64,000 bases of DNA. Source: Psychrobacillus lasiicapitis. Lineage in GTDB: Bacteria > Bacillota > Bacilli > Bacillales_A > Planococcaceae. The DNA lies in the NCBI RefSeq assembly GCF_006861795.1, contig NZ_VDGH01000009.1, forward strand, positions 124,001 through 188,000, written 5' to 3'. Positions 41,837 to 60,438 of the stretch are shown one piece after another (the first letter of the stretch is position 1; every line of letters begins with the position of its first letter). The position numbers and the translations under genes are program-made. The notes under the pieces were generated by a model that saw only the letters and a list, made by a program, of their open reading frames with translations, had not been told where the DNA came from and ran no database searches.

Positions 41837-43399
41837 ATGAAATTTAGAAAGTTGCCAGTAAACTCAGAAATAGAAAAATGTGAAAATGGATTTTTTTATT
41901 TATTAGAAGATAATTGGAATGATTGGTGGGAATTTAAAACTTTATATCAATTATATTATAAAGAAGATAATGGGGAAGTAATTTATATTGGTGGGGTGAA
42001 AATTGGTGAAATCGAAATGGAATCTGATCAACGGAGTCCAAACTTAGAAGAATATTTCACTAAACTTGACGATCGATTCTTTTCTATTGGCGAAGATATA
42101 TATTACTATGAAAATTTAAATAAATTAGGGGATGAATTAAGAGATAACGTATTAGAAAATTTAAAAGATATTGCTTTGGATAAAAAATTATTTAACAAAG
42201 TAAAAAATTTGAGGGTCACAACTAGATCATTATTGCGAGATAAAATATCTAAGTTAAAAAAGCTTCAGAATCTTGCTCTTGGTAACTCTATTTTAACTCC
42301 ATATAATTTTAGCTTCTTTTATCATAGCCATGAAACTAATTTATCGAAAGAGTTTACTTTTTATTCAAAACCAAATTCACATCCACCTACTAACGTTCAA
42401 GTAATTATAGGAAGAAATGGTGTTGGGAAAACGTATTTAATGAACAATTTGTTATTTTCTATTATGAATAAGGATAGTAAATCACAAATCAAATCAAATT
42501 ATGAAAAGTTTGGATATGATGAAAAAATATTCGAGAACATTATGTATATATCATTTAGTGCATTTGACGGGACTGATTTTGTCAAAAACACTAAAAAAAG
42601 TAAAAAAAGACCCTCTTACTCGTATATTGGATTAAAGGCTATGAACAGTAAAGGGAATGTTTTTAACAAAAATACAGAAATGTTAGTTGAAGAACTTATA
42701 AATAGTATGTGGAAATGTAGAAAAATACCTTCAAAAAGAGCTCGACTACAGCAAGCTTTATTAGAATTAAATATTGATCCAATATTTAATCAATCTGATC
42801 TCATTGAAAAACTTAAAATAAAAGAAGTAGAGTTCAATAAGCAAAATGAAGATATGAAAAAGTTACTTAAAGAATCTTTTTATTCAGAATTAAGACCTAT
42901 TTGTAAGAAGTTTAGTTCTGGGCATTCAATTGTTTTATTGACAATTTGTAAATTAATAGAAGAATTAGAAGAAAAAACTTTAGTGCTTCTAGATGAACCA
43001 GAAAGTCATCTACATCCCCCATTACTTTCGACTTTCATTAGAATATTATCTGATTTACTTGTCAAAAGAAATGGCATTGGTATAATAGCAACACATTCCC
43101 CAGTAATTTTGCAAGAAGTACCAAGTGAATGTGTCTATATTTTGGATAGACAGGGTTTTGAAATTAATACTCATAGACCTACTATAGAAACTTATGGAGA
43201 AAATATAAATACCTTAACAAAGGAAGTTTTTTCTTTTGAGCTTACAAATTCAGGCTTCCACAATGCATTAATAGAAGTTGCAAATAAATTCAACACCTAT
43301 GAAGAGGCACTAGCCTATTTTGATGGAAAATTAGGATTAGAAGCAAAGGCCATTCTAAGAAATCTTATTAATATTAAGGAAAGAGATGCAGATGCGTAA
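41837..43399 (+). CDS. ABC-type ATPase, Septu PtuA-like (anti-phage candidate)
   Basis: 520 residues. ABC/SMC-like ATPase: Walker A GRNGVGKT at 192-199, a signature-like FSSGHS at 359-364, Walker B TLVLLDEPESHLHPP at 381-395, and H-loop ATHSPV at 418-423; this is the AAA_15/AAA_21 organisation of overcoming-lysogeny (OLD)-like and PtuA-type defence ATPases. The N-terminal 140 residues are not of a type I recognise. Overlaps the HNH nuclease gene by 14 bases, so the pair is translationally coupled. ATP-driven control of nuclease activity is the expected role (inference). Confidence 0.75.
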   Translation: MKFRKLPVNSEIEKCENGFFYLLEDNWNDWWEFKTLYQLYYKEDNGEVIYIGGVKIGEIEMESDQRSPNLEEYFTKLDDRFFSIGEDIYYYENLNKLGDELRDNVLENLKDIALDKKLFNKVKNLRVTTRSLLRDKISKLKKLQNLALGNSILTPYNFSFFYHSHETNLSKEFTFYSKPNSHPPTNVQVIIGRNGVGKTYLMNNLLFSIMNKDSKSQIKSNYEKFGYDEKIFENIMYISFSAFDGTDFVKNTKKSKKRPSYSYIGLKAMNSKGNVFNKNTEMLVEELINSMWKCRKIPSKRARLQQALLELNIDPIFNQSDLIEKLKIKEVEFNKQNEDMKKLLKESFYSELRPICKKFSSGHSIVLLTICKLIEELEEKTLVLLDEPESHLHPPLLSTFIRILSDLLVKRNGIGIIATHSPVILQEVPSECVYILDRQGFEINTHRPTIETYGENINTLTKEVFSFELTNSGFHNALIEVANKFNTYEEALAYFDGKLGLEAKAILRNLINIKERDADA

Positions 43400-44228
43400 T
43401 TTACCTCAGCCAGAATTTTTATTAAAAGAAGTTTATACAAGCTGTGTTAATGATTTTACTGATGAAGAAAAAAAGAAAAGACTGAATGATTGTTTAACTT
43501 ATATCTTGGGTAAAGAGAAAGCTTATTTAGAACTAAAAGGTGTAAAGTTATTATATAGCCTTACAGATGAGATATGTTCCGAATTAAGTATAGAAAAAAA
43601 AGAATTAAAATCCGTATACAAACAAAAATTTTCAGCAGAAAAAGGACCAGGTAGAGATACTTATTTAAAAATAAGAAGTGCTAGTCCACAAAATACTTGT
43701 CCAACATGTGGGCAAAGGAAAGTAACTACATTAGATCATTATTTAGCACAAACACACTATCCATCATTAGTAGTTGCACCAATAAACCTTGTTCCCTCTT
43801 GTTTTGATTGTAATAAAAAGAAGCTTTCTTCAAAACCAAGTACTCATCTAGAAGAAACATTGCATCCATACTTGGATGATTTAGGTGATGAAAGATTTCT
43901 ATATATGGAGATTAAAGAAGATAAAGAGTTAAATATATGCTTTTATATTTCTAAAGCTAGTATGTGGGATGAGGATTTTTACTATAGGGTTCAGTTTCAC
44001 TTTAAGGACATGGATTTAAATGAGTTGTATATCAGTCATGCGGTTGATGAGATAATTGGTAATTTAGATATATGGAGAGAAATGAATTCGTTGGATTTAA
44101 AACAGCATTTGATAGAATTGTCAAATTCAAGAAGAAAGATAGATTTGAATTGTTGGCAAGTTGCTTTATTTGAGGGACTATCAAATAGCGAATGGTTTTG
44201 TGAGGAAGGAGTTAAAAGTTTATTTTAG
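43386..44228 (+). CDS. HNH endonuclease, Septu PtuB-like partner
   Basis: 280 residues. HNH fold around 105-145: zinc knuckle C105-P-T-C108, catalytic D117-H118, N134 in PINLVPS, second pair C139 and C142, with N143 in CFDCNKKK. This fits a beta-beta-alpha-metal DNA (or RNA) nuclease. The N-terminal 100 residues are helical and charged, and the C-terminal 130 residues resemble a second, non-catalytic domain. Overlaps the ATPase gene by 14 bases. In Septu the ATPase PtuA holds PtuB in check until phage infection. Confidence 0.75.
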   Translation: MQMRNLPQPEFLLKEVYTSCVNDFTDEEKKKRLNDCLTYILGKEKAYLELKGVKLLYSLTDEICSELSIEKKELKSVYKQKFSAEKGPGRDTYLKIRSASPQNTCPTCGQRKVTTLDHYLAQTHYPSLVVAPINLVPSCFDCNKKKLSSKPSTHLEETLHPYLDDLGDERFLYMEIKEDKELNICFYISKASMWDEDFYYRVQFHFKDMDLNELYISHAVDEIIGNLDIWREMNSLDLKQHLIELSNSRRKIDLNCWQVALFEGLSNSEWFCEEGVKSLF

Positions 44229-44665: not shown

Positions 44666-47600
44666 ATGAGCCAGAGAAATACATTTAACGAAGCAACTCG
44701 TGTACAAATGCCAGCCATGGTACATCTTACAAGACTTGGTTTTAACTACTTTGGCAAAATATCAGAAGAAAATGCCGGGCAAATCTATGATCCGGATACC
44801 AATATTCTCTTGGACGTTTTTAAAGAACAATTTGAAAAATTAAATCCCGAAAATGGTGGAGATGCAGAACACGTTTTGCGTGAAATTTGCCAGGAATTGG
44901 ATAATGATGATTTGGGGCGTAGTTTTTATAATCGTCTAACTTCTGTTTCTCCCACAAGATTAATCGACTTCGACAATCCAAAAAATAATATTTTTCATTT
45001 TACAGCAGAGTTCACCTGTAAACGTGATCAGGATGAATTTCGTCCTGATATCTCACTTTTTGTGAATGGGCTTCCTCTTGTGTTTATCGAAGTAAAAAAA
45101 CCAAATAATCAAGGTGGCATGGTGGCTGAAAGCAACCGTATGAATCGTCAGCGTTTCCCAAATAAAAAGTTTCGTCGATTCGTCAACATCACACAGTTAA
45201 TGATATTTTCTAACAATATGGAATACGACACTATGGGAGGTATTGTTCCTATCCAGGGTGCTTTTTACTGCACAGCAGCTCGTGAGTCTGCTCCTTTCAA
45301 TAGTTTCAGAGAAGAAAATCCGGCAGATCAAGAGATAGCACCTTATATCCAAAATTATTGTTATAATGCTATCAATGTCGACGATGAGAGACGAATACTG
45401 TCTGATTATAATTGTCAGGTCATTCATACTGCTCCAGAATATCAAACTAATTTAAATTTCAATACACCTACAAATCGTATCATCACTTCGATGTGTAGTC
45501 CTGAACGATTGCTATTTATCGTTAAGTACGGAATTGCATATGTGAAGATGGAACGTGAAGTCGATGGTGCAATTGAGACTACAGATCAAAAGCACATCAT
45601 GCGTTATCAACAAATGTTCGCATCAATGGCTATATGTAGTAAATTGGATGAAGGGGTCAAATCTGGCGTTATTTGGCATACGCAAGGAAGTGGTAAAACC
45701 GCCCTCTCCTTCTATTTAAACCATGTGTTGTCGGATTATTTTGCTGCACAAAATAAAGTTGCAAAATTCTATTTCATCGTGGATAGATTAGATTTACTTG
45801 AACAAGCATCACAAGAATTCGAAGCTCGTGGTCTAGAAGTAAAAACAGCCGATTCTCGTGCTGAATTAATGGAACAATTCAAAACTAACCAAGCACTTGA
45901 AGGTAGTAGTGGTAAAAGTGAAATTACAGTTGTAAATATCCAACGCTTTGCCGAAGACAAAGAAAAAATTGAAATTCCACCTTATGCCACTAACCTTCAA
46001 CGTATTTTTATCATTGATGAAGCTCATCGTGGATATAATCCAACAGGCAGTTTTTTGGCTAATCTATTTGATTCAGACAAAAACTCTATCAAAATTGCTT
46101 TAACTGGTACGCCTCTTCTTAAAGAAGAACGGGCTTCTTGGAAAGTATTTGGCGATTACATTCATACGTATTACTATGATAAATCTATTCAGGATGGCTA
46201 TACTCTTAAAATTATCCGCGAAGATATTGAAACTTCATATCGCGAAAGTCTTTCTACAATCTATGAAAAATTGGAAAAGCTTGTTGAAAAGAAAGACATC
46301 AAAAAAAAACATATTATCGAACATGAGAGTTACGTAAAAGAGCTGGTTCGCTTTATCATTAAAGATCTAAAGAGCTTTAGATTAATACACGGGGATAACA
46401 CTCTTGGTGGTATGGTAATATGTGAATCGAGTGAACAAGCTCGAAACCTTTATGCTTTTTTTGACGATGTTCAATATGAAATCAATTCCCAGTCATCAGA
46501 AAAGAGTAATTTTAAAGTTGGGTTAATTCTTCACGATAGTGAAGATAAAGAAACCCGAAAAAAAATTGTTAAGGATTTCAAAAAGAATATGACAGTTGAT
46601 ATTTTGATAGTTTTTAATATGCTATTAACTGGGTTTGATGCGCCTCGTTTGAAACGTGTTTACTTCGGAAGAAAACTAAAAGATCATAATTTGCTTCAAG
46701 CTCTAACTCGTGTGAATCGTCCTTATAAAGACAACCGCTATGGATACATTATTGACTTTGCGGATATAAAAAAAAATTTCGTGGAAACGAATGAAGCATA
46801 TTTGAAAGAACTAAATCGCTTCAATGATACTGATGAAACAGGTGAAGGTAATGCTACAGATACATTTCAACAAGTCCTCGAAGATAAAGATGCATTAATC
46901 GCTCAGATGCGAGAGGTACGTCAAACATTGTTTAACTACACGACAGATAACCTTGAAGATTTCAGCTCTGAAATATCAACTATTGAGGATAAAAAAGAAC
47001 TTCTGCAATTGAAGAAGGTGTTAGTTTCTGCCCGTGATTGTTGTAATATTGTCCGTACTTTTGGAGATGAGGATTTAAAAGAAGCATTCTCTCATCTTGA
47101 AATAACTAAACTGCCAACAATGATTTCTGAAGTTCAACATCATATTAACAATATTAATCAAAAAGAAGCATTTTATCAAAATGATTCAACCAAAATGCTT
47201 GTTAACGAAGCGATGAAAGATATAACATTCAATTTCAGTAAGATCGATGAAGAAGAAATGAAGATTATTTTAGGCGGTATGGAATTGCAAAAAAAATGGA
47301 AGCGCGCCATTAATGATTTTACAGAAAATATGGATCCTGACGATCCAGAATTTATTACTCTACGTGAAGCGTTTATTTTAAGATTCAAAGAACATGGATT
47401 TGTTATTGATAGTGTTAATGAGTTCAAAGAACATTCAAAAGCATTAGATGAAGTTCTAAAAAAATTGCAAGAGCTGAAAAAACGAAACAATATACTATTA
47501 AAGAAATACAAAGGTGATGTAAAATTTGCTCGTGTTCACAAAAGAATTCGTGAAGAAAACGTAAAGCGTAAAATTGAACACAAAAAGCCAATGGTTTCGG

Positions 47601-47842
47601 AGTACGATGAATCAGTTATCAATACATTGCTTTATATCAAAAATGATATAGACCAGCAAGTTTATGACAGAAATGATATTCTTAAAAAAGACGCTTATTT
47701 TGAGCAAACAGTCATGAAGCAAATTAAAGAAGGCATGAATAAGCTCAACCTTGATAATTCAAGAGAAGACCGCCTATTCATCCAAGTTCGCATTACAAAA
47801 CAATATCTAAATCAATACAGTGGAACTTATCCCGCTGTATAG
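44666..47842 (+). CDS. hsdR: Type I restriction enzyme, R subunit
   Basis: 1058 residues. N-terminal PD-(D/E)xK nuclease: P127-D128 in FRPDISLF and E142-x-K144 in VFIEVKK. Helicase motor: Walker A TQGSGKT at 339-345, DEAH at 451-454 in FIIDEAHRGY, and SF2 motif VI-like VFNMLLTGFDAPRLKRV later. Long C-terminal helical region docks on HsdM/HsdS. Translocates and cuts unmodified DNA far from the recognition site. GGAGGAAAAAC precedes ATG 44666. First of three collinear genes (R-M-S order, hsdM 19 bases after). Confidence 0.95.
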   Translation: MSQRNTFNEATRVQMPAMVHLTRLGFNYFGKISEENAGQIYDPDTNILLDVFKEQFEKLNPENGGDAEHVLREICQELDNDDLGRSFYNRLTSVSPTRLIDFDNPKNNIFHFTAEFTCKRDQDEFRPDISLFVNGLPLVFIEVKKPNNQGGMVAESNRMNRQRFPNKKFRRFVNITQLMIFSNNMEYDTMGGIVPIQGAFYCTAARESAPFNSFREENPADQEIAPYIQNYCYNAINVDDERRILSDYNCQVIHTAPEYQTNLNFNTPTNRIITSMCSPERLLFIVKYGIAYVKMEREVDGAIETTDQKHIMRYQQMFASMAICSKLDEGVKSGVIWHTQGSGKTALSFYLNHVLSDYFAAQNKVAKFYFIVDRLDLLEQASQEFEARGLEVKTADSRAELMEQFKTNQALEGSSGKSEITVVNIQRFAEDKEKIEIPPYATNLQRIFIIDEAHRGYNPTGSFLANLFDSDKNSIKIALTGTPLLKEERASWKVFGDYIHTYYYDKSIQDGYTLKIIREDIETSYRESLSTIYEKLEKLVEKKDIKKKHIIEHESYVKELVRFIIKDLKSFRLIHGDNTLGGMVICESSEQARNLYAFFDDVQYEINSQSSEKSNFKVGLILHDSEDKETRKKIVKDFKKNMTVDILIVFNMLLTGFDAPRLKRVYFGRKLKDHNLLQALTRVNRPYKDNRYGYIIDFADIKKNFVETNEAYLKELNRFNDTDETGEGNATDTFQQVLEDKDALIAQMREVRQTLFNYTTDNLEDFSSEISTIEDKKELLQLKKVLVSARDCCNIVRTFGDEDLKEAFSHLEITKLPTMISEVQHHINNINQKEAFYQNDSTKMLVNEAMKDITFNFSKIDEEEMKIILGGMELQKKWKRAINDFTENMDPDDPEFITLREAFILRFKEHGFVIDSVNEFKEHSKALDEVLKKLQELKKRNNILLKKYKGDVKFARVHKRIREENVKRKIEHKKPMVSEYDESVINTLLYIKNDIDQQVYDRNDILKKDAYFEQTVMKQIKEGMNKLNLDNSREDRLFIQVRITKQYLNQYSGTYPAV

Positions 47843-47861
47843 ATTAACTTAGGAGAGTCAC

Positions 47862-49484
47862 ATGAATATTAAAGAACAGACAATATTACTTATTGATGAA
47901 CTCAAATCAACTTGTCAAACTTATGGAATGGGTAACGACGGCAATGAGTATAAAATAATTACGCAAGTTTTCCTATATAAGTATATCAATGACAAATTTG
48001 CATTTGAGGTAAAAAAAATCAACCCCGCTCTTGCTGAAGAAGAGAAATGGGAAATTGTATATGCAAACATGTCTGAGGATGACCGTCTAGATATTCTAGA
48101 TGAACTTTCTCCAGATGTTCCTCGTCTCAATCCAGAACACTTGATTTCTTCTCTTTGGAATCAACAGCAAAAAGGCGATTTTGATTTAATTTTTGATAGC
48201 ACGATGATTGATATTGCAGATAAAAATATCGATATCTTCGCAACACAAACAACACAAGATACCAGAATTCCTTTATTTGAGCCAAGTACTGTTTTTATTA
48301 CAGATACTGCAGAACGAGCACCTTTCGCACGTGCTTTAGTTGATAAATTGGTAAATTTTTCATTTGAAGGTGCATTTGCACAAAACTACGACTTCTTTGC
48401 GGCTATTTTTGAATATCTAATCAAAGATTACAATACTGCGGGTGGTGGAAAGTATGCAGAATACTATACTCCTCATGCTATCGCAACAATTATGGCTAGA
48501 TTACTCGTTGGAGATAATGCTGATTTGCACAACATTGAGTGTTACGATCCATCAGCTGGAACTGGGACTCTATTAATGGCTCTTGCCCACCAAGTCCATG
48601 AAGATCGTTGTACCATTTTTGCTCAAGACATCTCTCAACGAAGCAACAAAATGTTGAAACTAAATTTAATTCTAAATGGTCTTGTCTCTTCTCTAGATCA
48701 TGCGATTCAAGGAGATACTTTAGTTTCACCTTACCATAAAGCGAATGATGGGCAATCACTACGTCAATTCGATTTTGTCGTATCAAATCCTCCATTCAAA
48801 ATGGATTTCTCTGATACTCGTGAAAAATTGGCAGCTATGCCTGCACGCTTCTGGGCCGGAGTTCCAAAAGTACCAGCTAAAAAGAAAGATAGTATGGCAA
48901 TCTATACATGTTTTATCCAGCACGTTATTAACTCTCTGAAAAATACTGGACGCGGTGCAATCGTTGTTCCTACTGGATTTATCACTTCTAAAAGCGGTGT
49001 GGAGAATAAAATTCTAAAATACATCGTAGATGAAAAAATCGTTTATGGATGCATCAGTATGCCTTCAAATGTATTCGCAACAACTGGTACAAACGTCTCT
49101 GTACTATTCTTTGATAAATCAAAACAAAGCGAAAAAGTTATCCTAATTGATTCATCTAAAATGGGCGAAGAATATCAAGATGGTAACAACAAAAAACGTC
49201 GTTTGCGTCCGAATGAAATTGAGCAGATTGTATCAACTTTCAGAAACAAGGAAGCTATTGATAATTTCTCCGTTGCAGTTACTTATGATGAAATTATTGG
49301 AAAAAAATATTCCTTATCAGCTGGACAGTATTTCGATGTTAAGATTGAGTATATTGAACTAACTCAAGATGAATTTAATGCTCAAATGGAGGATTACTCA
49401 ACAAAACTACAATCGCTTTTTGCAGAAGGAAACCGATTACAAAATGAAATTATGGAGCAGTCGAAAAAGGTGAAATATGAGTAA
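47862..49484 (+). CDS. hsdM: Type I restriction enzyme, M subunit (N6-adenine methyltransferase)
   Basis: 540 residues. Helical N-terminal part, then gamma-class methyltransferase: SAM-binding motif I at D229-P-S-A-G-T-G-T, catalytic NPPF at 309-312. Methylates the two adenines of the recognition sequence chosen by HsdS. TTAGGAGAG is ahead of ATG 47862. Its 3' end overlaps hsdS by 8 bases, favouring coordinated complex assembly. Confidence 0.95.
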   Translation: MNIKEQTILLIDELKSTCQTYGMGNDGNEYKIITQVFLYKYINDKFAFEVKKINPALAEEEKWEIVYANMSEDDRLDILDELSPDVPRLNPEHLISSLWNQQQKGDFDLIFDSTMIDIADKNIDIFATQTTQDTRIPLFEPSTVFITDTAERAPFARALVDKLVNFSFEGAFAQNYDFFAAIFEYLIKDYNTAGGGKYAEYYTPHAIATIMARLLVGDNADLHNIECYDPSAGTGTLLMALAHQVHEDRCTIFAQDISQRSNKMLKLNLILNGLVSSLDHAIQGDTLVSPYHKANDGQSLRQFDFVVSNPPFKMDFSDTREKLAAMPARFWAGVPKVPAKKKDSMAIYTCFIQHVINSLKNTGRGAIVVPTGFITSKSGVENKILKYIVDEKIVYGCISMPSNVFATTGTNVSVLFFDKSKQSEKVILIDSSKMGEEYQDGNNKKRRLRPNEIEQIVSTFRNKEAIDNFSVAVTYDEIIGKKYSLSAGQYFDVKIEYIELTQDEFNAQMEDYSTKLQSLFAEGNRLQNEIMEQSKKVKYE

Positions 49485-50592
49485 TTGGACAGAAAAAAAT
49501 CTAGGAGATATTTCAAAAATAATCACTGGACCCTTCGGAACTCAACTTCATAAATCTGACTATAAAAGTTCCGGAATCGCTGTTATTATGCCGCAAAATA
49601 TTGGTGACAGAACAATTTCTTACGAAAAAATAGCTTTTATTTCTGAGGAAGATGCCAAAAGACTTAAAAGATATGTTGTTCATCAAAACGATATTGTCTA
49701 CGCTCGAAGAGGAGACGTTGAGAAACATGCTTTTATATCGGAAAAAGAAGATGGTGAGCTTTGTGGAACTGGTTGTTTTCTAGTCCGCTTTGAAAGCGAG
49801 GAAGTTATTCCAGAGTTTATTTCCTATTACTTGAATACTCCTCAAATTAAAAAATGGATTTTAAAAAACGCTGTTGGTTCTAACATGCCTAATTTAAATA
49901 CTGACATTCTAAAAAATGTACCTGTTAAATTTCCAGATATAAACATTCAAAAGCGTATAGTGAAAACAATGTCTCTAATTAGCAAAAAAATACTAACTAA
50001 CAGAGAAATAAATAATAATTTAGATAAGATGGCATATAAAACATATATGCACCTATACTTTGGAAAGAAGCCAAATGGTAAAGTTAGCGATATTCTCGTT
50101 GAAAATAGTAAGTCCAAAATTCAAGTAGGCGATGCTAAAGGTATAAAAGGGAATTACCCATTTTTTACAAGTGGTGATACGATTCTTGAATGGGACGATT
50201 ATTTAGTTAGCGGTAGAAACTGCTATTTAAACACTGGAGGTAATGCTGACGTTAAGTTTTACGTTGGGAAATCTGCCTATTCCACTGATACTTGGTGTAT
50301 TACTGCGAAAAACGGGATGGAAGATTATCTTTTCCTCATGTTAAAATCTATTACCCCAGAACTTAATATAAAGTTCTTCCAGGGAACAGGACTAAAACAT
50401 TTGCAAAAGCCCCTTCTTAAATATAGAGAGATTTATATCCCATCCGAACAGGAAATAAAATTCTTTAACAAAAAAATACAACCAATGTTCAACTTAATTG
50501 CCAGTAATACAAGAGAAAACCAAAATTTAATGAATCTCAGAGATTGGCTACTACCAATATTGATGAATGAGCAAGCTATAGTTGAAAACTAG
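49477..50592 (+). CDS. hsdS: Type I restriction enzyme, S (specificity) subunit
   Basis: 371 residues in two target-recognition halves. TRD1 (1-170) starts WTEKNLGDISKIITGPFG; the conserved helical spacer follows at about 155-195 (IQKRIVKTMSLISKKILTNREINNNL), then TRD2 (200-340) and the second helix at the end. The two TRDs set the bipartite DNA target, which can only be learned by methylation mapping. ATG 49477 lies inside the end of hsdM. A terminator at 50644 closes the operon. Confidence 0.93.
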   Translation: MSNWTEKNLGDISKIITGPFGTQLHKSDYKSSGIAVIMPQNIGDRTISYEKIAFISEEDAKRLKRYVVHQNDIVYARRGDVEKHAFISEKEDGELCGTGCFLVRFESEEVIPEFISYYLNTPQIKKWILKNAVGSNMPNLNTDILKNVPVKFPDINIQKRIVKTMSLISKKILTNREINNNLDKMAYKTYMHLYFGKKPNGKVSDILVENSKSKIQVGDAKGIKGNYPFFTSGDTILEWDDYLVSGRNCYLNTGGNADVKFYVGKSAYSTDTWCITAKNGMEDYLFLMLKSITPELNIKFFQGTGLKHLQKPLLKYREIYIPSEQEIKFFNKKIQPMFNLIASNTRENQNLMNLRDWLLPILMNEQAIVEN

Positions 50593-52119: not shown

Positions 52120-52446
52120 ATGGAAGATAAAACATTAAAGAGGGCTATTGAAACGGCAGGTTGTTGGTTTGTGGCACATTATATTACAGAGGTACTTGAT
52201 AATTATCCTCGTCTAGAAATGGATCGTGCTTTTAAAAAAAAATTTACTCAAACTATTTTTGAAAAAGAACAAAGAGACCGAACCATTGGAGGTACACAGG
52301 CAAGAGTAAGTGCTTTAATGAAGGTTGTTCGTATGAATAAGGTTATTGAAGCAATGGAATACATTATTCAGTCAAAAAGATTGAATCAAGCAGACCCGAA
52401 GTCCGTAGAAATGGCGAAGGAAATACTTAAAAAGCTTTGTTCATAG
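52120..52446 (+). CDS. Small hypothetical protein heading the McrB operon
   Basis: 108 residues, helical and basic; no domain recognised. Features: ETAGCWFVAHYITEVLDNYPRL, FEKEQRDRTIGGTQARVSALMKVV. GAGGTGA lies just before ATG 52120. No terminator is visible in the 167 bases before the mcrB-like gene, so it may be the first gene of that transcript or a separately expressed regulator. Included as a possible component of the system. Confidence 0.6.
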   Translation: MEDKTLKRAIETAGCWFVAHYITEVLDNYPRLEMDRAFKKKFTQTIFEKEQRDRTIGGTQARVSALMKVVRMNKVIEAMEYIIQSKRLNQADPKSVEMAKEILKKLCS

Positions 52447-52613
52447 TCTTTTGTACCTATTCTCGAACAATTCAGATATATTCGTAGAATAGGATGCGAG
52501 AAAGCCTTGTAGTAAGCACTAACAGTCTTATTTTATTCTTTTATTTGTGAAAGGACAGTATCTGCGACTTAGAAAAGAAGTGATGCTGTAAATTGAATGA
52601 TGGGGGATGTATT

Positions 52614-54425
52614 ATGGCAAAGGTGTTTTATGACGTTATCGGAGATCGCGATAATGTATATAATGCAGCAAATGAATGGAAAGAAAACTGCTTGTTGCAA
52701 GATCGTTCATTATTTAATGAAAATCATACACTATGGACATTGGAAAATTTGAAATTATTAAAAAATAGATTTAATGACAGTCCAATGTATTCTGGACAAT
52801 TGACGTTTGATAAAAAATTTGAAATGCAATTACAAGGTGCACCTCAAGTGATTTATCAACTAGCCATGGAGATCATGTATGTTTATTATTTATTTCCATA
52901 TTCAAAAACCGTGAGTTACCGTACTAAGCTGCTAAAACTTAAAGATATTGCAAGCTGGGGAGAAGTTCCTTACGATAACAAGCATCCATTATTAAAGGAT
53001 TTAGAATTAGGGATTGGTGCAACAGGTACATATTATAATACAGCAAAATTTGAGGAGATTTCCTATATTATTCAGTTTGCAACCACGATTAAGCTCATGT
53101 CTGTTGAAGAGCGACATAACGTGCTAGACGATCCATGGGAGTTAAAGAAAGTTATTGCGGACACAAAAAACATAATTGGGAAAAATGTACAAGTACAACA
53201 TATAATATCACATCTAATTGCTCCCGATTATTTTGAATGTATGGCAAGTGCAACTCATAAATCATTAATCGTGAAAAGTTTTTATGATAGTATTCGTAAT
53301 GAAAATGAACCAGATATAGATAAGAAATTGTATGAAATTCGCGAAACCTTAGAAGCTGATGGACAGTATAATCCTGTGAACTTTTATCATAATAAAATGA
53401 TTTATGATATGTGGAAACCTAATCCGAAAAAAAATCCCAAAATAATACCACAACCATTACCACAACCTGTAGATGATAATTTTGACTTAAATATTTCAAC
53501 CTTGGGAAATCTCGTATTTGAAAATGAGGGAATATTGTTAAATCAAATTCAAACGGCATTAAAGAGTGGTAAACATATTATTTTAACTGGTCCCCCAGGT
53601 ACAGGGAAATCAAAACTAGCGACTGAAATTTGTAATCAAATTGGAATATCAAACAAGCTTGTAACAGCGACATCTAATTGGACAACCTACGATACCATAG
53701 GTGGCTATAAACCAACTAAAAATGGAGAGCTATATTTTGATTCTGGTATATTTCTAGAATGCTTCAAAAACAAAGAATTTATCAATCTAAATGAGTGGTT
53801 AATTATTGATGAAATTAATCGAGCGGATATCGATAAAGCATTTGGACCTTTATTTTCAGTGCTATCAGGGGATGAGGTAACACTTTCCTACGAAATGAAA
53901 GACGGGACTCCAATTATATTAAAACCTGAAAGTAAAGTGAATGGTGACATTCAAAAGAATGAGTTCGTTGTTCCGAATGATTGGCGAATTATCGGTACAA
54001 TGAACACCATTGATAAGTCGTCATTATTTGAAATGAGCTATGCATTTATGCGCCGTTTTGCCTTTATACCAGTAGGTGTACCGAAGTACATTTCACCACG
54101 TTTAGTAGATGAATATCTGGATGCTTGGTCTATTCAAAATTATATTCATACGGAAACGTTAACTACACTCTGGGAGCTTATCAATCAATACCGTAAGATT
54201 GGGCCAGCAATTGTCCGTGATATTGCAAATTATACTGCAGAAAGCGAAGATTTCACGTCAGCAATAATATTATATGTGCTGCCTCAATTCGAAGGGTTAA
54301 ATGATTATAAGATTAAAGACTTTGTCGCTCAGTTAAGTGTCAAGTTAGGCGACTTGATAGCAGAGGACCTTTTAAAGGATTTTATCGAAGACTTTTTCCA
54401 AATTGGTGTTGTAGATGAAGTATGA
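52614..54425 (+). CDS. McrB-like AAA+ GTPase, restriction NTPase subunit
   Basis: 603 residues from ATG 52614 (GGGGGAT upstream; the frame is open from 52593). N-terminal half (1-300) carries the presumed DNA-recognition domain, unlike the EVE or McrB domains I know. AAA+ motor: Walker A GPPGTGKS at 326-333, Walker B LIIDEINRADIDKAFGPLFS at 396-415, sensor MNTIDKS at 463-469 and the RRF arginine finger region near 480. DEINRADIDKAFG and MNTIDKS are McrB hallmarks. Overlaps the McrC-like gene by 11 bases. Expected: NTP-driven translocation coupled to the nuclease partner. Confidence 0.88.
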   Translation: MAKVFYDVIGDRDNVYNAANEWKENCLLQDRSLFNENHTLWTLENLKLLKNRFNDSPMYSGQLTFDKKFEMQLQGAPQVIYQLAMEIMYVYYLFPYSKTVSYRTKLLKLKDIASWGEVPYDNKHPLLKDLELGIGATGTYYNTAKFEEISYIIQFATTIKLMSVEERHNVLDDPWELKKVIADTKNIIGKNVQVQHIISHLIAPDYFECMASATHKSLIVKSFYDSIRNENEPDIDKKLYEIRETLEADGQYNPVNFYHNKMIYDMWKPNPKKNPKIIPQPLPQPVDDNFDLNISTLGNLVFENEGILLNQIQTALKSGKHIILTGPPGTGKSKLATEICNQIGISNKLVTATSNWTTYDTIGGYKPTKNGELYFDSGIFLECFKNKEFINLNEWLIIDEINRADIDKAFGPLFSVLSGDEVTLSYEMKDGTPIILKPESKVNGDIQKNEFVVPNDWRIIGTMNTIDKSSLFEMSYAFMRRFAFIPVGVPKYISPRLVDEYLDAWSIQNYIHTETLTTLWELINQYRKIGPAIVRDIANYTAESEDFTSAIILYVLPQFEGLNDYKIKDFVAQLSVKLGDLIAEDLLKDFIEDFFQIGVVDEV

Positions 54426-55683
54426 GTGGATGATTGATGAAGTAAGTAGCTATCTCTATGGATACTTAAAAGATGGGGTCATTCAAATAGACTCTTTTAT
54501 TCATAAAGCGCATTTTTCCATCGACCGACTCCAAGATTTGTTAAAACTGAGGTTCATTAAGAACAAGCGTACACTTATATTTATGAATTCATTAGAGGGT
54601 GCATTAGGTTCAATTAAATCATCAACAGATTCGAATACGCTGGAAAGTTATCATGAGGTACGTGGAGAAATATTATGGGAAGAAACGCTCCAAAGACGTT
54701 TGCAAACAAATCCGAAAGATAGTTTTCGATTTATTACTCGTGAAACGGAGCGTACGTTTAACACCGATGAAAACTTAGTATTAAAAGAGCTACTGGTTAA
54801 GTTGTATAATTATTGTTTCGATGATCAATTCCTAAACATTTTTGCATCCCGACCTTGGTATGAAGAAGTGCTGAATAATCGGGACTTTGTTGAGAAGGCG
54901 TTATACCAAAATGTGTATGTATCCAGAATTGTACGAAAAAACGTTTCAGATAGAACAATTAATAAAGTGAAATCTCATCGAAAGAAGATTTATAGAGAGG
55001 CAGCTCATCTCTTGTTTTTTATTCGGAAAATAGAACAGGAAGATTTTACTCCTGAACAATTAACTGAAGTACTGCATGAGTTTTTTATCATACCTACAAA
55101 TGAAGATGTTTTGTTCGAGCTGTACTGGATTGTTCAAATTTTAAAACAGCAAAACAATGTAACTTATTATTTAATGGATGGAACAAACTCGAAGGTTGCA
55201 AGCTGGGCAGATGGTGAATTTGATGTTCATTTGTATCATAATTCTACAGGTTCCAAGTTTGTGAAATTTCAAATTCATATTGATGAATTAGCGGATAGTG
55301 CCAACCCATATTTGATCCATAAAATGCAATCGATTCATCAATATAGAGAATTAGCAAAAACATTTTTTAACGTAGATAAGTCTGCGATTTATTGGGGTGG
55401 TAGACCAGATATTTTGATTGAAAAAGTTGATCGCAAAATGAACCGGTTAGATAGCCTTGTGATTGGGGAGATAAAAAACACACAGAAAATGGACTATGTA
55501 TCAAAAGGTTTAAGCGAGCTAATTGATTATATGTATCTGGTAAAAAATGATCGAGGTCAATACTTAGTTGATACGAATGTACAAATTAAGGGTTTACTTT
55601 GTGTTGGTGCAATAGAGTTAAAAGAAGTAGAAAAAGAGAAGATAAAAGTGGCAACCTTGTTTACAAAGGACTTACTAATTTAA
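54415..55683 (+). CDS. McrC-like PD-(D/E)xK nuclease subunit
   Basis: 422 residues. N-terminal part is helical, with ERTFNTDENLVLKELLVKLYNYC typical of the McrC/DUF2357 stretch. C-terminal nuclease core has P331-D332 in GGRPDILIE and E352-x-K354 in VIGEIKNT, i.e. the PD-ExK catalytic set, intact. The start overlaps the McrB-like gene (ATG 54415), so the two are co-translated. Pairs with McrB to cut modified or otherwise foreign DNA (established for the family; the target here is unknown). Confidence 0.85.
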   Translation: MKYEWMIDEVSSYLYGYLKDGVIQIDSFIHKAHFSIDRLQDLLKLRFIKNKRTLIFMNSLEGALGSIKSSTDSNTLESYHEVRGEILWEETLQRRLQTNPKDSFRFITRETERTFNTDENLVLKELLVKLYNYCFDDQFLNIFASRPWYEEVLNNRDFVEKALYQNVYVSRIVRKNVSDRTINKVKSHRKKIYREAAHLLFFIRKIEQEDFTPEQLTEVLHEFFIIPTNEDVLFELYWIVQILKQQNNVTYYLMDGTNSKVASWADGEFDVHLYHNSTGSKFVKFQIHIDELADSANPYLIHKMQSIHQYRELAKTFFNVDKSAIYWGGRPDILIEKVDRKMNRLDSLVIGEIKNTQKMDYVSKGLSELIDYMYLVKNDRGQYLVDTNVQIKGLLCVGAIELKEVEKEKIKVATLFTKDLLI

Positions 55684-55719
55684 AGTTTTTTTAAAATTAA
55701 AAGAAGTACTTTTAGTAAA

Positions 55720-56802
55720 ATGAAAATAATATCATTGAAAAAAGGTTGTGCTCAACGAATGGTTAAATTAACGACCAGGACAATCCAAGAACAAATTGTT
55801 TTAATTGGTAGTCAACTTGGTTTTCAAGCTTTTCGAGAATATTCCTTTACAAATATACCAGGTATGTATGCACCAAGATATGATGTTGTTTGGTTATTAA
55901 ATGTCTCAGAACTTAATGTGGAAAAGGTTGCAGATATCCCATTAATTAATGAAAAATATATTCCATTTGCAGCATTTGAGATTGAAGGCTCAACAACGTC
56001 TTCCAAAAATCAATTAGGTAATATTGGAAATTTAAAACTTTCTCCTTGCTATTTTAACTTTTTGGTTGTCAATAATGCTGCAGCTGCAAAAGAAAATGAT
56101 ACATATAGGCGTGCTATAAAAATCGTACGTACGATTCAAAAGGTAATGGGAGAGCGTCCCTTATTTCTATTTGATGCATGTATGTTGAAGGATTTACCAA
56201 CATTCAGTAAAACTTTGATTATTGGAAAATCAGATGAAAAATTACGATTAAAGGGTTCTGGTGGAGAAAAAGACTCAATTATAGTAGCTAAAAGTTTATT
56301 CAATAAACTTCAACAGTCAAATTTACAAATTGAATATGATCGTACCCCTGACTATTTTAAATGGGCGTTTCATCTAGAGAAAGAATTTATGCCATCTAAA
56401 TATTTTACTTTAGATCCCATTACATTTGAACAAAAACCTTTGAAACAAGATGGCCAGTATTTCTATAAACCTAAAATTGATATAGCGGTTGGCTTTCAAA
56501 TAGGTGAAGGATTTATCGATTTCTTAAGGGAAATCGCCATACGATTAAAAAGTGATGCGATTCATTTTCCTCTTTTAAAGTATCTGCTAGATAAACAAAT
56601 TAGGGAAATGTATTTCCCACTGCTTGGTATTGAAATTGAAATGAAAGAGTCTAAACATGCTTTAGGTGGTCTAATGAATCTAACAAACTTTCACCAATAT
56701 GGTTGGTTGGTAGCTCCAGTATCGATGGGACCATATATTGAAACGTATAAGCATCATCTAGGCATGCAAAATATAGAGCATATTAAGCTGGAGGAATTAT
56801 AA
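55720..56802 (+). CDS. Restriction-nuclease-like protein of unknown family
   Basis: 360 residues. The N-terminal 150 residues suggest a PD-(D/E)xK-like core: a leading helix with E24, D55 in PRYDVVWLL, and E87-x-E89 in AFEIEGSTTSSKN; the expected lysine of ExK is replaced by Glu, though K96 lies near. The C-terminal 200 residues contain no recognisable motif. ATG 55720 or ATG 55759 (AAAAAGG upstream, a little distant) could be the start. Two bases separate its stop from the nitrilase gene, and it follows McrC closely: part of the operon. No family claimed. Confidence 0.65.
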   Translation: MKIISLKKGCAQRMVKLTTRTIQEQIVLIGSQLGFQAFREYSFTNIPGMYAPRYDVVWLLNVSELNVEKVADIPLINEKYIPFAAFEIEGSTTSSKNQLGNIGNLKLSPCYFNFLVVNNAAAAKENDTYRRAIKIVRTIQKVMGERPLFLFDACMLKDLPTFSKTLIIGKSDEKLRLKGSGGEKDSIIVAKSLFNKLQQSNLQIEYDRTPDYFKWAFHLEKEFMPSKYFTLDPITFEQKPLKQDGQYFYKPKIDIAVGFQIGEGFIDFLREIAIRLKSDAIHFPLLKYLLDKQIREMYFPLLGIEIEMKESKHALGGLMNLTNFHQYGWLVAPVSMGPYIETYKHHLGMQNIEHIKLEEL

Positions 56803-56804
56803 TA

Positions 56805-58067
56805 ATGCAAATTTTATTAGTACAACCCTATGAAGATTATCAATATAATTATCAAAATCTTTATGATGAAGTGTTGGATATCATTAAACATCAAAAAGTT
56901 GACTTAGTGGTTTTTCCAGAAGCTTTTATTCAGTTGGAAAATGAAGAAGATCCATGGTCATTCATAGAAAATATAGCAGATTTTTTGAACAAACCAGTCT
57001 TACTAGGATTCTCTATGCCTGATGGTTCAGAAAGAGCTTATTATTTGAATTGGGAACCAAAAGAAGGGGAAACGGAGGAGAAATTCTATATTAAACATTC
57101 AACGGCTAGAAAAACACTATTTGATTTTGAGCTAACAAATGAAGAACAGCAGATGATGTACACACCGGTAATCCTAAATGGTAAACGTATTCAACCATAT
57201 ATTTGTCATGATATGTTTTTTCCATTAGTAACGGAACGCTTAGAAAAACAAGGTGCAGACATATTGATAAATCTAACGGGTGGCAATGTAAAAATGTCCA
57301 AATGGTGTAACATCTTAAAAGGGCGCTCTATCGAACTTAATTCGTATGTTTTTTGTACAATGGGCAATCGGATAAACATGAATCAACCTTCTGATCGTAT
57401 TGGTTATTACCAAGGACAGAAATTACGAGCATGCTACACAAAGGGTAACGGGGAAGAGGAACATGCTTATAGTATTTTTTCAATAGCAGATAAGCAAGTT
57501 TACTTAGATGAGATGTCCCCTTATTATAGCGATAAGATGTATGACCAATTTACAGTAGGTACTAATAGACTCTCCGATTGTATAATTGACATTACTTCTT
57601 GTACGATCAAATCTACTTTACAAAATAGATCAGATGATGAAGAGTACTCACTTATCCTTATAAAAGGGAAAGAAAATATACAAGTGCATATAGTTAACTA
57701 TGAAGATTTATATGATAGAACATATTTGTATAAGGTGAAGCAAAGTAGAGATGCTCATCAAATTTTTGTGTACATCACTAGTGATAAAGTTGATTTAGCT
57801 ACAACCATTGCTTTATTGAAGCTGAGAGTCATAGAGAACAGAATTGCGGCGGTAGTGGCTACCCCTGACCTGTTAATAGGCGCAAAAACTAATCGATATA
57901 AAGATGTACAGTTATTTGAAGGTAAAGATAATCAAATTGGATTTGATTTACAACATATGTATGGCACTTCCAGTATCTATCAAAAGAATGGAAATAGTAT
58001 GATGGGGATTGTGGAAAAACACAAAAAAAAATATGAAGGTTTATTATCGAACGAAATAAATATTTGA
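56805..58067 (+). CDS. Nitrilase-superfamily (carbon-nitrogen hydrolase) protein in a defence operon
   Basis: 420 residues. The N-terminal 290 residues have the nitrilase fold with all three catalytic residues: E39 in VVFPEAF, K97 in YIKHST and C134 in YICHDMFFP. The C-terminal 130 residues form an added domain unlike the usual nitrilase ending. Nitrilase-type enzymes cleave amide, nitrile or NAD-like C-N bonds; the substrate here is not readable. Begins 2 bases after the nuclease-like gene (AGGAATTATAAT upstream). A metabolic enzyme in this place suggests production or removal of a small molecule in defence (inference). Confidence 0.8.
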   Translation: MQILLVQPYEDYQYNYQNLYDEVLDIIKHQKVDLVVFPEAFIQLENEEDPWSFIENIADFLNKPVLLGFSMPDGSERAYYLNWEPKEGETEEKFYIKHSTARKTLFDFELTNEEQQMMYTPVILNGKRIQPYICHDMFFPLVTERLEKQGADILINLTGGNVKMSKWCNILKGRSIELNSYVFCTMGNRINMNQPSDRIGYYQGQKLRACYTKGNGEEEHAYSIFSIADKQVYLDEMSPYYSDKMYDQFTVGTNRLSDCIIDITSCTIKSTLQNRSDDEEYSLILIKGKENIQVHIVNYEDLYDRTYLYKVKQSRDAHQIFVYITSDKVDLATTIALLKLRVIENRIAAVVATPDLLIGAKTNRYKDVQLFEGKDNQIGFDLQHMYGTSSIYQKNGNSMMGIVEKHKKKYEGLLSNEINI

Positions 58068-58294
58068 CACCAAAGCACTTTTTAGATGAGAAGTGAATTC
58101 AATATGGATAATTCGGAAGTACTTTTTACCAAATTATTAGACGAAATCCTACGTCAGTTAAAATTTGTAGATCTTAATTAGATATGCGGGATGAACGAAT
58201 TGCATCGGCATAGTTATGCGAATTAATAAATATGTACGATGAAATTCTTTATTAAAAGAAGTGAAATAGTAATAGAAAGTAGGAGGGAGTACTG

Positions 58295-58525
58295 ATGGAT
58301 TTTAAAGATTTTCTAATGAAAGAATATAAACTAGGAAAAAAATCGGCTGATGATTATGCAAGTCGTTTTAACGGAATATTAGAAAGAGGGATTTATAAGG
58401 GGGAATCTCAAATTACTCCTAGCATGGAAGCAACCATTGAAAAGGAATTTGAAAAATCAAGTGGTCATTATATTCTAGCTCTAAGACGCCACATTGAATT
58501 TCAACAGAAGAATTTTACTAAATAA
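58295..58525 (+). CDS. Small protein like the SAM (core-binding) domain of tyrosine integrases
   Basis: 76 residues, GTAGGAGGGAG ahead of ATG 58295. The segment FKDFLMKEYKLGKKSADDYASRFNGILE is like the helical core-binding start of phage integrases, but no catalytic domain follows. It stands 228 bases after the nitrilase gene with no clear terminator in between. Could be a standalone DNA-binding accessory of the defence operon or a fragment of a mobile-element protein. Confidence 0.5.
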   Translation: MDFKDFLMKEYKLGKKSADDYASRFNGILERGIYKGESQITPSMEATIEKEFEKSSGHYILALRRHIEFQQKNFTK

Positions 58526-58656
58526 ACATCTAATTAAGTTATTCAACTCCTGTGATCTCAAGATAATGAAAAGTAAAAAGGTGTAAATCCACACAGACAA
58601 GAAATTAAATTTATTAACATATTATTAAATAATTACCTTATGTTATGGAGACTATC

Positions 58657-60438
58657 ATGAGTACTATAAAAAACATATTGACCTTTGGTGCATATGGGCG
58701 AATCGAAGAAGCAGTGGAAAAGTATAACAAAGTTAAGAAGCGATATAACTCTAGATTGTATAAAATGAAATTAAAAAGCCGCGAAGTGGATGCTGTGCTA
58801 GAAACAGTAGTACGAGTGAAAATTGAAGCGATAAAAAATCTTAATACATTTAAGGAATTTTCAGTAGGAAATATTGAAAACACGTTATATAAGTCAAATA
58901 AATTCAAATCAGCAGACTTCAAACACATAAATCAAACTTTGGAAAAAGGTCAACTGGCTTTGACAGCATCGGTTGGTGCAGCTGTTGGCGCAACAGCTGG
59001 AGTTGGAACCGCTCTTGCTACTTGGGGACTAGCTTCGACATTAGGAACAGCATCTACAGGCACAGCTATATCAACTTTATCTGGTGCAGCGGCAACAAAA
59101 GCAACATTAGCTTTGCTTGGCGGTGGATCAGTAGCAGCTGGTGGTGGCGGAATTACGGCAGGTGCGGCAGTACTTGGTGGTATTGTTGCAATTCCAGCTC
59201 TAGTAGCACTAGGAGTTTTCAGCCATTTAAGCGCAAAAAAGAAAATTGCGGAAATAGAATCTGCAATATATAAGATGAAAATTAATATGTATAAAATGGA
59301 CACAAACATAATTCGGTTAAAAGAAATCCAAAAAAAGTCAAATAAGTTAATCCGATTAATTAAGAAAAAATCCAAAAACCTAAAGTATGAGTTATACATT
59401 GCAAACCGAATTGTAAACGGAGAGATGAGTAAAATAACTAGTTTTTATCATCAAATAAGGACTACTATTTTCAACAGAAGTGTCACAAAACTAGCAAATG
59501 AGATTTCAATATTAATAGATACGCCGATTTTCAATGAGGATACTGAAAAAGATCATTTAAATAAAACGTATAACCAAAAGAATGCTACCCCTTACATTAT
59601 TTTAGCTGTTTTTTTAATAGCGGTTGCTCTATATATTCTTTCTGTACCTATGAATAAAGACATTTTCCCTTTTAATACATTTTTAAAAGACGAAATGGCA
59701 CGCGCAGTTAATACCATTAATGAAAGTAATTTAAATGAAGATTATGATGATGTTTTAGAACAAGCTGAACGATTAACACAAGCTGTAGAAAGTGGAGACA
59801 TAGAGCTTGTTAAATCAATACTAAATGCAGGAGTAGACCCTAATATAGATGCTTATGAAAGTCCTTCTGCTTTAAAAATAGCAAAATACAATGGTTATAA
59901 TGAAATCGCGGACTTGTTAACTGAAGCAGGTGCAAAAGGCGAGTATGACGATCAAATTATAGATTTAGTTAATGCTATAAATAATGGAGAGAACGACTAC
60001 ATAAAATTGCGATTAGAAAGCGGTCTAGATCCAAATAGCATGGATGAAGATGGTACAACATTATTAATTTTAGGTGTACTTTATCAAAACTTAGAGGCTG
60101 TAAAGTTACTCTTGTCTGCAGGTGCTGACCCGAATTTTGACTCTAATCCAGATGGGAGTACGGATTTTACTCCTCTTATGTACGCTGCACAAAATGGTAA
60201 TAAAGAAATTCTAATTACTTTGATTGAAGCTGGAGCAGATGTAAACAAAATTGAGAGTGATACAGCTTTAATTTGGGCTATTAGAGAGGGGCGTGCGGAG
60301 ATTGTTAAAGAACTCATAAACCAAGGAGTTGATGTCAATCCTTCAATCGATAGCTATTCACCATTAAATGAAGCAGAATATTATGGGAATGGTGATATTA
60401 TTGAACTATTAAAACAAGTAGGAGCTAAGAATTATTAA
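58657..60438 (+). CDS. Gly/Ala-rich membrane protein with C-terminal ankyrin repeats
   Basis: 593 residues from ATG 58657 (TATGGAGAC upstream). Order: helical basic N-terminus (1-95); a striking Gly/Ala-rich hydrophobic stretch (101-188) with AVGATAGVGTAL, GAAATKATLALLGGGS and AAGGGGITAGAAVLGG, like glycine-zipper or pore-forming segments; coiled coil (200-300); a true transmembrane helix at 312-331; and four to five ankyrin repeats (about 370-593) such as GDIELVKSILNAGVDPN and NLEAVKLLLSAGADPN. Membrane-perturbing part plus protein-binding repeats suggests a defence effector or interaction scaffold (inference). Confidence 0.7.
   Translation: MSTIKNILTFGAYGRIEEAVEKYNKVKKRYNSRLYKMKLKSREVDAVLETVVRVKIEAIKNLNTFKEFSVGNIENTLYKSNKFKSADFKHINQTLEKGQLALTASVGAAVGATAGVGTALATWGLASTLGTASTGTAISTLSGAAATKATLALLGGGSVAAGGGGITAGAAVLGGIVAIPALVALGVFSHLSAKKKIAEIESAIYKMKINMYKMDTNIIRLKEIQKKSNKLIRLIKKKSKNLKYELYIANRIVNGEMSKITSFYHQIRTTIFNRSVTKLANEISILIDTPIFNEDTEKDHLNKTYNQKNATPYIILAVFLIAVALYILSVPMNKDIFPFNTFLKDEMARAVNTINESNLNEDYDDVLEQAERLTQAVESGDIELVKSILNAGVDPNIDAYESPSALKIAKYNGYNEIADLLTEAGAKGEYDDQIIDLVNAINNGENDYIKLRLESGLDPNSMDEDGTTLLILGVLYQNLEAVKLLLSAGADPNFDSNPDGSTDFTPLMYAAQNGNKEILITLIEAGADVNKIESDTALIWAIREGRAEIVKELINQGVDVNPSIDSYSPLNEAEYYGNGDIIELLKQVGAKNY

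Follow-up and report, generated by a model that had tools for sequence, protein, structure and literature searches.

Nitrilase domains are already known in phage defence from DRT type 1 (PMC13275509, PMC7699616), a UG1 reverse transcriptase-nitrilase in which the nitrilase domain serves as the defence effector (PMC13275509, PMC9122126) and is held in check until infection (PMC13275509). In the open-licence papers covered, nitrilase effectors of phage defence are known only as such reverse transcriptase fusions. With this background, we analysed a 64,000-nucleotide stretch of the Psychrobacillus lasiicapitis contig NZ_VDGH01000009.1 (the window), in which a first-pass annotation had proposed a four-gene defence operon composed of McrB/McrC, a second nuclease-like protein and a nitrilase-fold enzyme. 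Our reading, held at about even confidence, is that the interval 52614-58067 comprises two independent two-gene modules, the second of which is most likely an anti-phage pair with the nitrilase-fold protein (NIT) as its effector.

The four genes lie on the forward strand in open reading frames 52593-54425, 54415-55683, 55720-56802 and 56805-58067, and the previously described arrangement, with an 11-base overlap between the McrB/McrC-like genes and a 2-base gap between the third and fourth genes, was confirmed on the sequence. The frames themselves stood, but two starts shifted when judged by those of homologues: the McrB gene begins at the ATG at 52614 instead of 52593, and the third gene at 55759 instead of 55720, giving its protein, named P360, 347 residues rather than 360. 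The McrC-like gene and P360 are 75 bases apart, with no terminator-like site called between them, and the 108-aa and 76-aa reading frames flanking the four genes had no relatives within the fetched loci.

The first two genes (module 1, 52614-55683) probably constitute a nucleotide-driven restriction system of a McrB-like AAA+ protein and a McrC-like PD-(D/E)XK protein. As in McrBC type IV restriction, an AAA+ protein bearing the NxxD motif of classical McrB (52614-54425; Walker A GPPGTGK; MNTID; AAA_5, E=2.7e-16; partial McrB match to PRK11331, E=2.7e-16) is followed by the overlapping gene of a D...ExK protein (54415-55683). The core of the latter, W-x-GRPD...GE(I/V)K, was conserved in nine aligned members, haloarchaeal plasmid proteins included, each of which adjoins an AAA+ gene; its GEIK glutamate is E352, one of the residues singled out in the first-pass annotation. 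In contrast to classical McrC, the window protein gave no match to Pfam McrBC PF10117 at E up to 1, and its alignment to a classical McrC was weak and centred on the catalytic core. Since a classical McrC at locus L021 of genome G148 matched PF10117 at 6.7e-37 in the same kind of scan, we labelled the window protein McrC-like rather than McrC. The classical pair at L021 (9577-14516) is on the opposite strand, with a NIT that lacks the Cys on one side and a C-terminal piece of NIT on the other, and the McrB/McrC-like pair of a haloarchaeal plasmid (L046, 3009-9377) adjoins QueD/QueE/QueC-type 7-deazaguanine genes.

We searched each of 261 genomes of the order for NIT, P360 and the McrC-like protein. 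P360 was found in four genomes with NIT adjacent in all four, while NIT matches, some of them fragments only, occurred in ten and the McrC-like gene in seven. The window genome alone among the 261 had both P360 and the McrC-like gene. At the six McrB/McrC-like loci besides the window, the two partners were always together, and P360 and NIT were absent from all six. A second scan, which covered one genome per species by short sequence patterns that distant P360s could escape, recovered five P360 loci, namely those of Sporosarcina limicola, two Planococcus, Domibacillus epiphyticus and Bacillus sp. V5-8f. NIT was directly downstream of P360 at all five (as broken genes in Bacillus sp. V5-8f), the two genes being 2 bp apart or overlapping by 4 bp where both were intact, and no McrB/McrC-like pair was present nearby in the stretches read. 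The Sporosarcina limicola and Planococcus contigs also figure among the 261 genomes, so that the two samples together hold six distinct P360 loci, including that of the window. No further credible P360 was found in a 398-genome phylum sample and no close relatives of P360 or NIT in viral, phage and plasmid collections, the range of the pair being narrow (Planococcaceae, Domibacillus and Bacillus). Since P360 loci carry NIT without McrB/McrC, and McrB/McrC-like loci lack P360 and NIT, these results indicated that P360-NIT is a two-gene unit of its own (module 2, 55759-58067). The earlier placement of McrB/McrC in one system with the other two proteins was thus not borne out. The first-pass annotation itself had named, as grounds for giving up its proposal, that NIT and P360 are mostly found away from McrB/McrC, and this is the pattern seen.

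The NIT gene (56805-58067) encodes a nitrilase-superfamily protein that matched Pfam CN_hydrolase (PF00795) at E=2e-10, with 40.9 bits against a cut-off of 23.2, and has the complete catalytic Glu-Lys-Cys set (E39, K97 and C134). Although its structure model is of middling overall quality (mean pLDDT 67), modelled residues 1-231 matched nitrilases and amidases at Z 16-18 and have the nitrilase fold in that model. The predicted nitrilase with intact triad, extra C-terminal domain and tight coupling to the upstream gene was upheld. NIT shares the fold and triad of nitrilase-superfamily amidases (PDB 9wpo, 5jqn and 3p8k) and differs from them by an added C-terminal domain of ~165 residues and by coming with a partner gene of its own. 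Profile self-alignment of this domain (residues 255-420, 57567-58064) with the second half of NIT itself gave a score reached by none of 200 column shuffles, which suggests a decayed half-nitrilase repeat. We also considered a CARF-like character for the domain; the Csm6_CARF match was weak (E=0.0055) and occurred in only one of eight family members, so this reading was not credited, and a Teneurin-like match was likewise weak.

The catalytic Cys was kept in all five readable NITs that are paired with P360 and lost in all four full-length unpaired ones, a small set in which three members with Ser come from one genus, the fourth being the G148 copy with Gln. A split Cys-bearing NIT without P360 also exists (L022), broken and with transposase-like genes between its parts. 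In the three species of that one genus (L018-L020), the lone NIT with Cys replaced by Ser lies in a conserved housekeeping neighbourhood and its C-terminal domain is still conserved.

P360 (55759-56802) has the invariant residues D42, E74-x-E76 and E292-x-E294. These motifs recall PD-(D/E)XK cores, also in the strand-helix patterns in which they are placed, and at the very low confidence of the AlphaFold model (mean pLDDT 35, too poor for a structure search) the resemblance is suggestive only. Sequence searches of Pfam, PADLOC, NCBIfam, PHROG and the PDB returned nothing usable for P360, and profile comparison with other nuclease-like proteins gave no match. The earlier description of this protein as nuclease-like has its basis in the motifs, with support from neither a profile nor a usable model. 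An internal duplication of P360 into two ExE blocks was suggestive only, the self-match being reached by 6 of 200 shuffles. At locus L026 (10001-11092), the P360 frame is interrupted by one internal stop (TAA) and the NIT gene after it is intact.

In comparison with named defence models, neither P360 nor NIT matched any family in a PADLOC copy dating from 2023, which could miss systems named later, and NCBIfam 2026 returned non-defence models only, mostly of generic nitrilase type. Pfam detected no reverse transcriptase domain in NIT or P360. Module 2 is like DRT type 1 and the UG5 RT-nitrilase in having a nitrilase-fold domain, with a role in phage defence that for NIT is a candidate one. It is unlike them in that NIT stands as a protein by itself, extended by a C-terminal domain, lacks a reverse transcriptase and has P360 as its partner. 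We found no description of a stand-alone nitrilase with P360 in the open-licence literature; the use of a nitrilase in phage defence is itself not new, DRT type 1 being the precedent.

Both P360 and NIT are under purifying selection, with dN/dS of ~0.06-0.11 for pairs with usable dS, and decayed copies of the pair are common. In the window, the defence-island setting noted before was corroborated upstream by a Septu-like PtuA/PtuB pair (41837-44228; PADLOC PDC-M01A, 6.6e-177; PDC-M01B, 1.8e-86; PtuA1, 5e-146) and by type I restriction-modification genes in the order HsdR, HsdM and HsdS (44666-50592), of which HsdR was identified by NCBIfam (2.1e-90) and HsdM and HsdS were assigned by reading only. 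Downstream, 58645-60438 encodes an ankyrin-repeat protein whose N-terminal part matches the candidate defence model PDC-M09A at 4.6e-32. Other defence genes were near P360-NIT at four of the five other loci (a type I HsdR fragment, GmrSD, a helicase-nuclease and Avs1a/Avs1b). The exception is Bacillus sp. V5-8f, whose broken copy is near a contig end, with no defence gene in view. As the family is small, few loci stand behind this context evidence, and the neighbouring defence genes indicate the setting of P360-NIT, not its function. Both Planococcus loci encode, 12 bases after NIT, a 162-aa protein with a D...ESKGS core (L016, 8437-8925; L017, 8270-8758). It was rejected as a third component: relatives occurred in 14 of the 261 genomes, 12 of which lack P360, and were mostly located elsewhere.

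Considering that DRT1 employs its nitrilase domain as a defence effector restrained until infection, we infer by analogy that NIT may be an effector amidase controlled by P360. In the proposed mechanism, a putatively nuclease-like P360 would sense or bind nucleic acid and control NIT, a Cys-Glu-Lys amidase that, once active, would hydrolyse an amide-bearing metabolite and so harm or arrest the infected cell, and the decayed C-terminal half-repeat would contribute to binding or assembly rather than catalysis. An effector role for NIT would fit the retention of the Cys in paired copies and its loss in unpaired ones. P360-NIT is thus a plausible candidate for an undescribed anti-phage pair of narrow range armed with a nitrilase. 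The proposal in full is put forward tentatively, as somewhat less likely than not: P360, as the founder of a new family, would sense nucleic acid and thereupon release NIT, a stand-alone amidase of nitrilase fold whose decayed half-nitrilase domain is regulatory, to attack an amide-containing metabolite.

The invariant acidic residues of P360 and their PD-(D/E)XK-like patterns in the very low-confidence model, together with the restriction genes near several P360-NIT loci, would also suit a restriction-like pair, in which P360 is the nuclease against invading DNA and the host is spared because NIT modifies either DNA, nucleotides or P360 itself. We consider this unlikely, because the nuclease fold of P360 is putative, no methylase or other modification gene accompanies the pair and, to our knowledge, no nitrilase acts on DNA. 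A metabolic role, with placement among defence genes by chance, is quite unlikely: nitrilase-superfamily enzymes are mostly metabolic and the lone NIT of one genus sits in a housekeeping neighbourhood, but the patchy distribution, island setting and decay of P360-NIT, which has no consistent metabolic neighbour, argue against it. Two tightly coupled genes, frequent decay and a Domibacillus copy that comes after what read like genes of a conjugative element could alternatively point to a toxin-antitoxin or element-maintenance module with no defence role; this is likewise quite unlikely, as the L026 NIT is intact, including its Cys, despite the stop in P360, and NIT is thus not obviously lethal without its partner. 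That all four genes form one undescribed system, with McrB/McrC cutting nucleic acid and P360 and NIT making or destroying a signal or modified base, is most improbable and was rejected on the co-occurrence counts, for despite the co-directional genes, the short McrC-P360 gap with no terminator-like site called in it and the classical McrBC pair adjoining NIT in G148, no other genome of the 261 shares both modules, and six McrB/McrC-like loci lack P360-NIT and five P360-NIT loci lack McrB/McrC. The G148 pair, moreover, is of a different McrBC family and is encoded on the strand opposite to the Cys-less NIT and the NIT fragment that flank it.

Returning to the anti-phage reading, P360-NIT is the interesting part of the interval, as a candidate that would combine a known type of effector with an arrangement for which we found no description. 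A nitrilase that stands alone and has a single partner dedicated to it, if true, would offer a simpler object than the reverse transcriptase fusions for finding the substrate of such an effector and how it is switched on.
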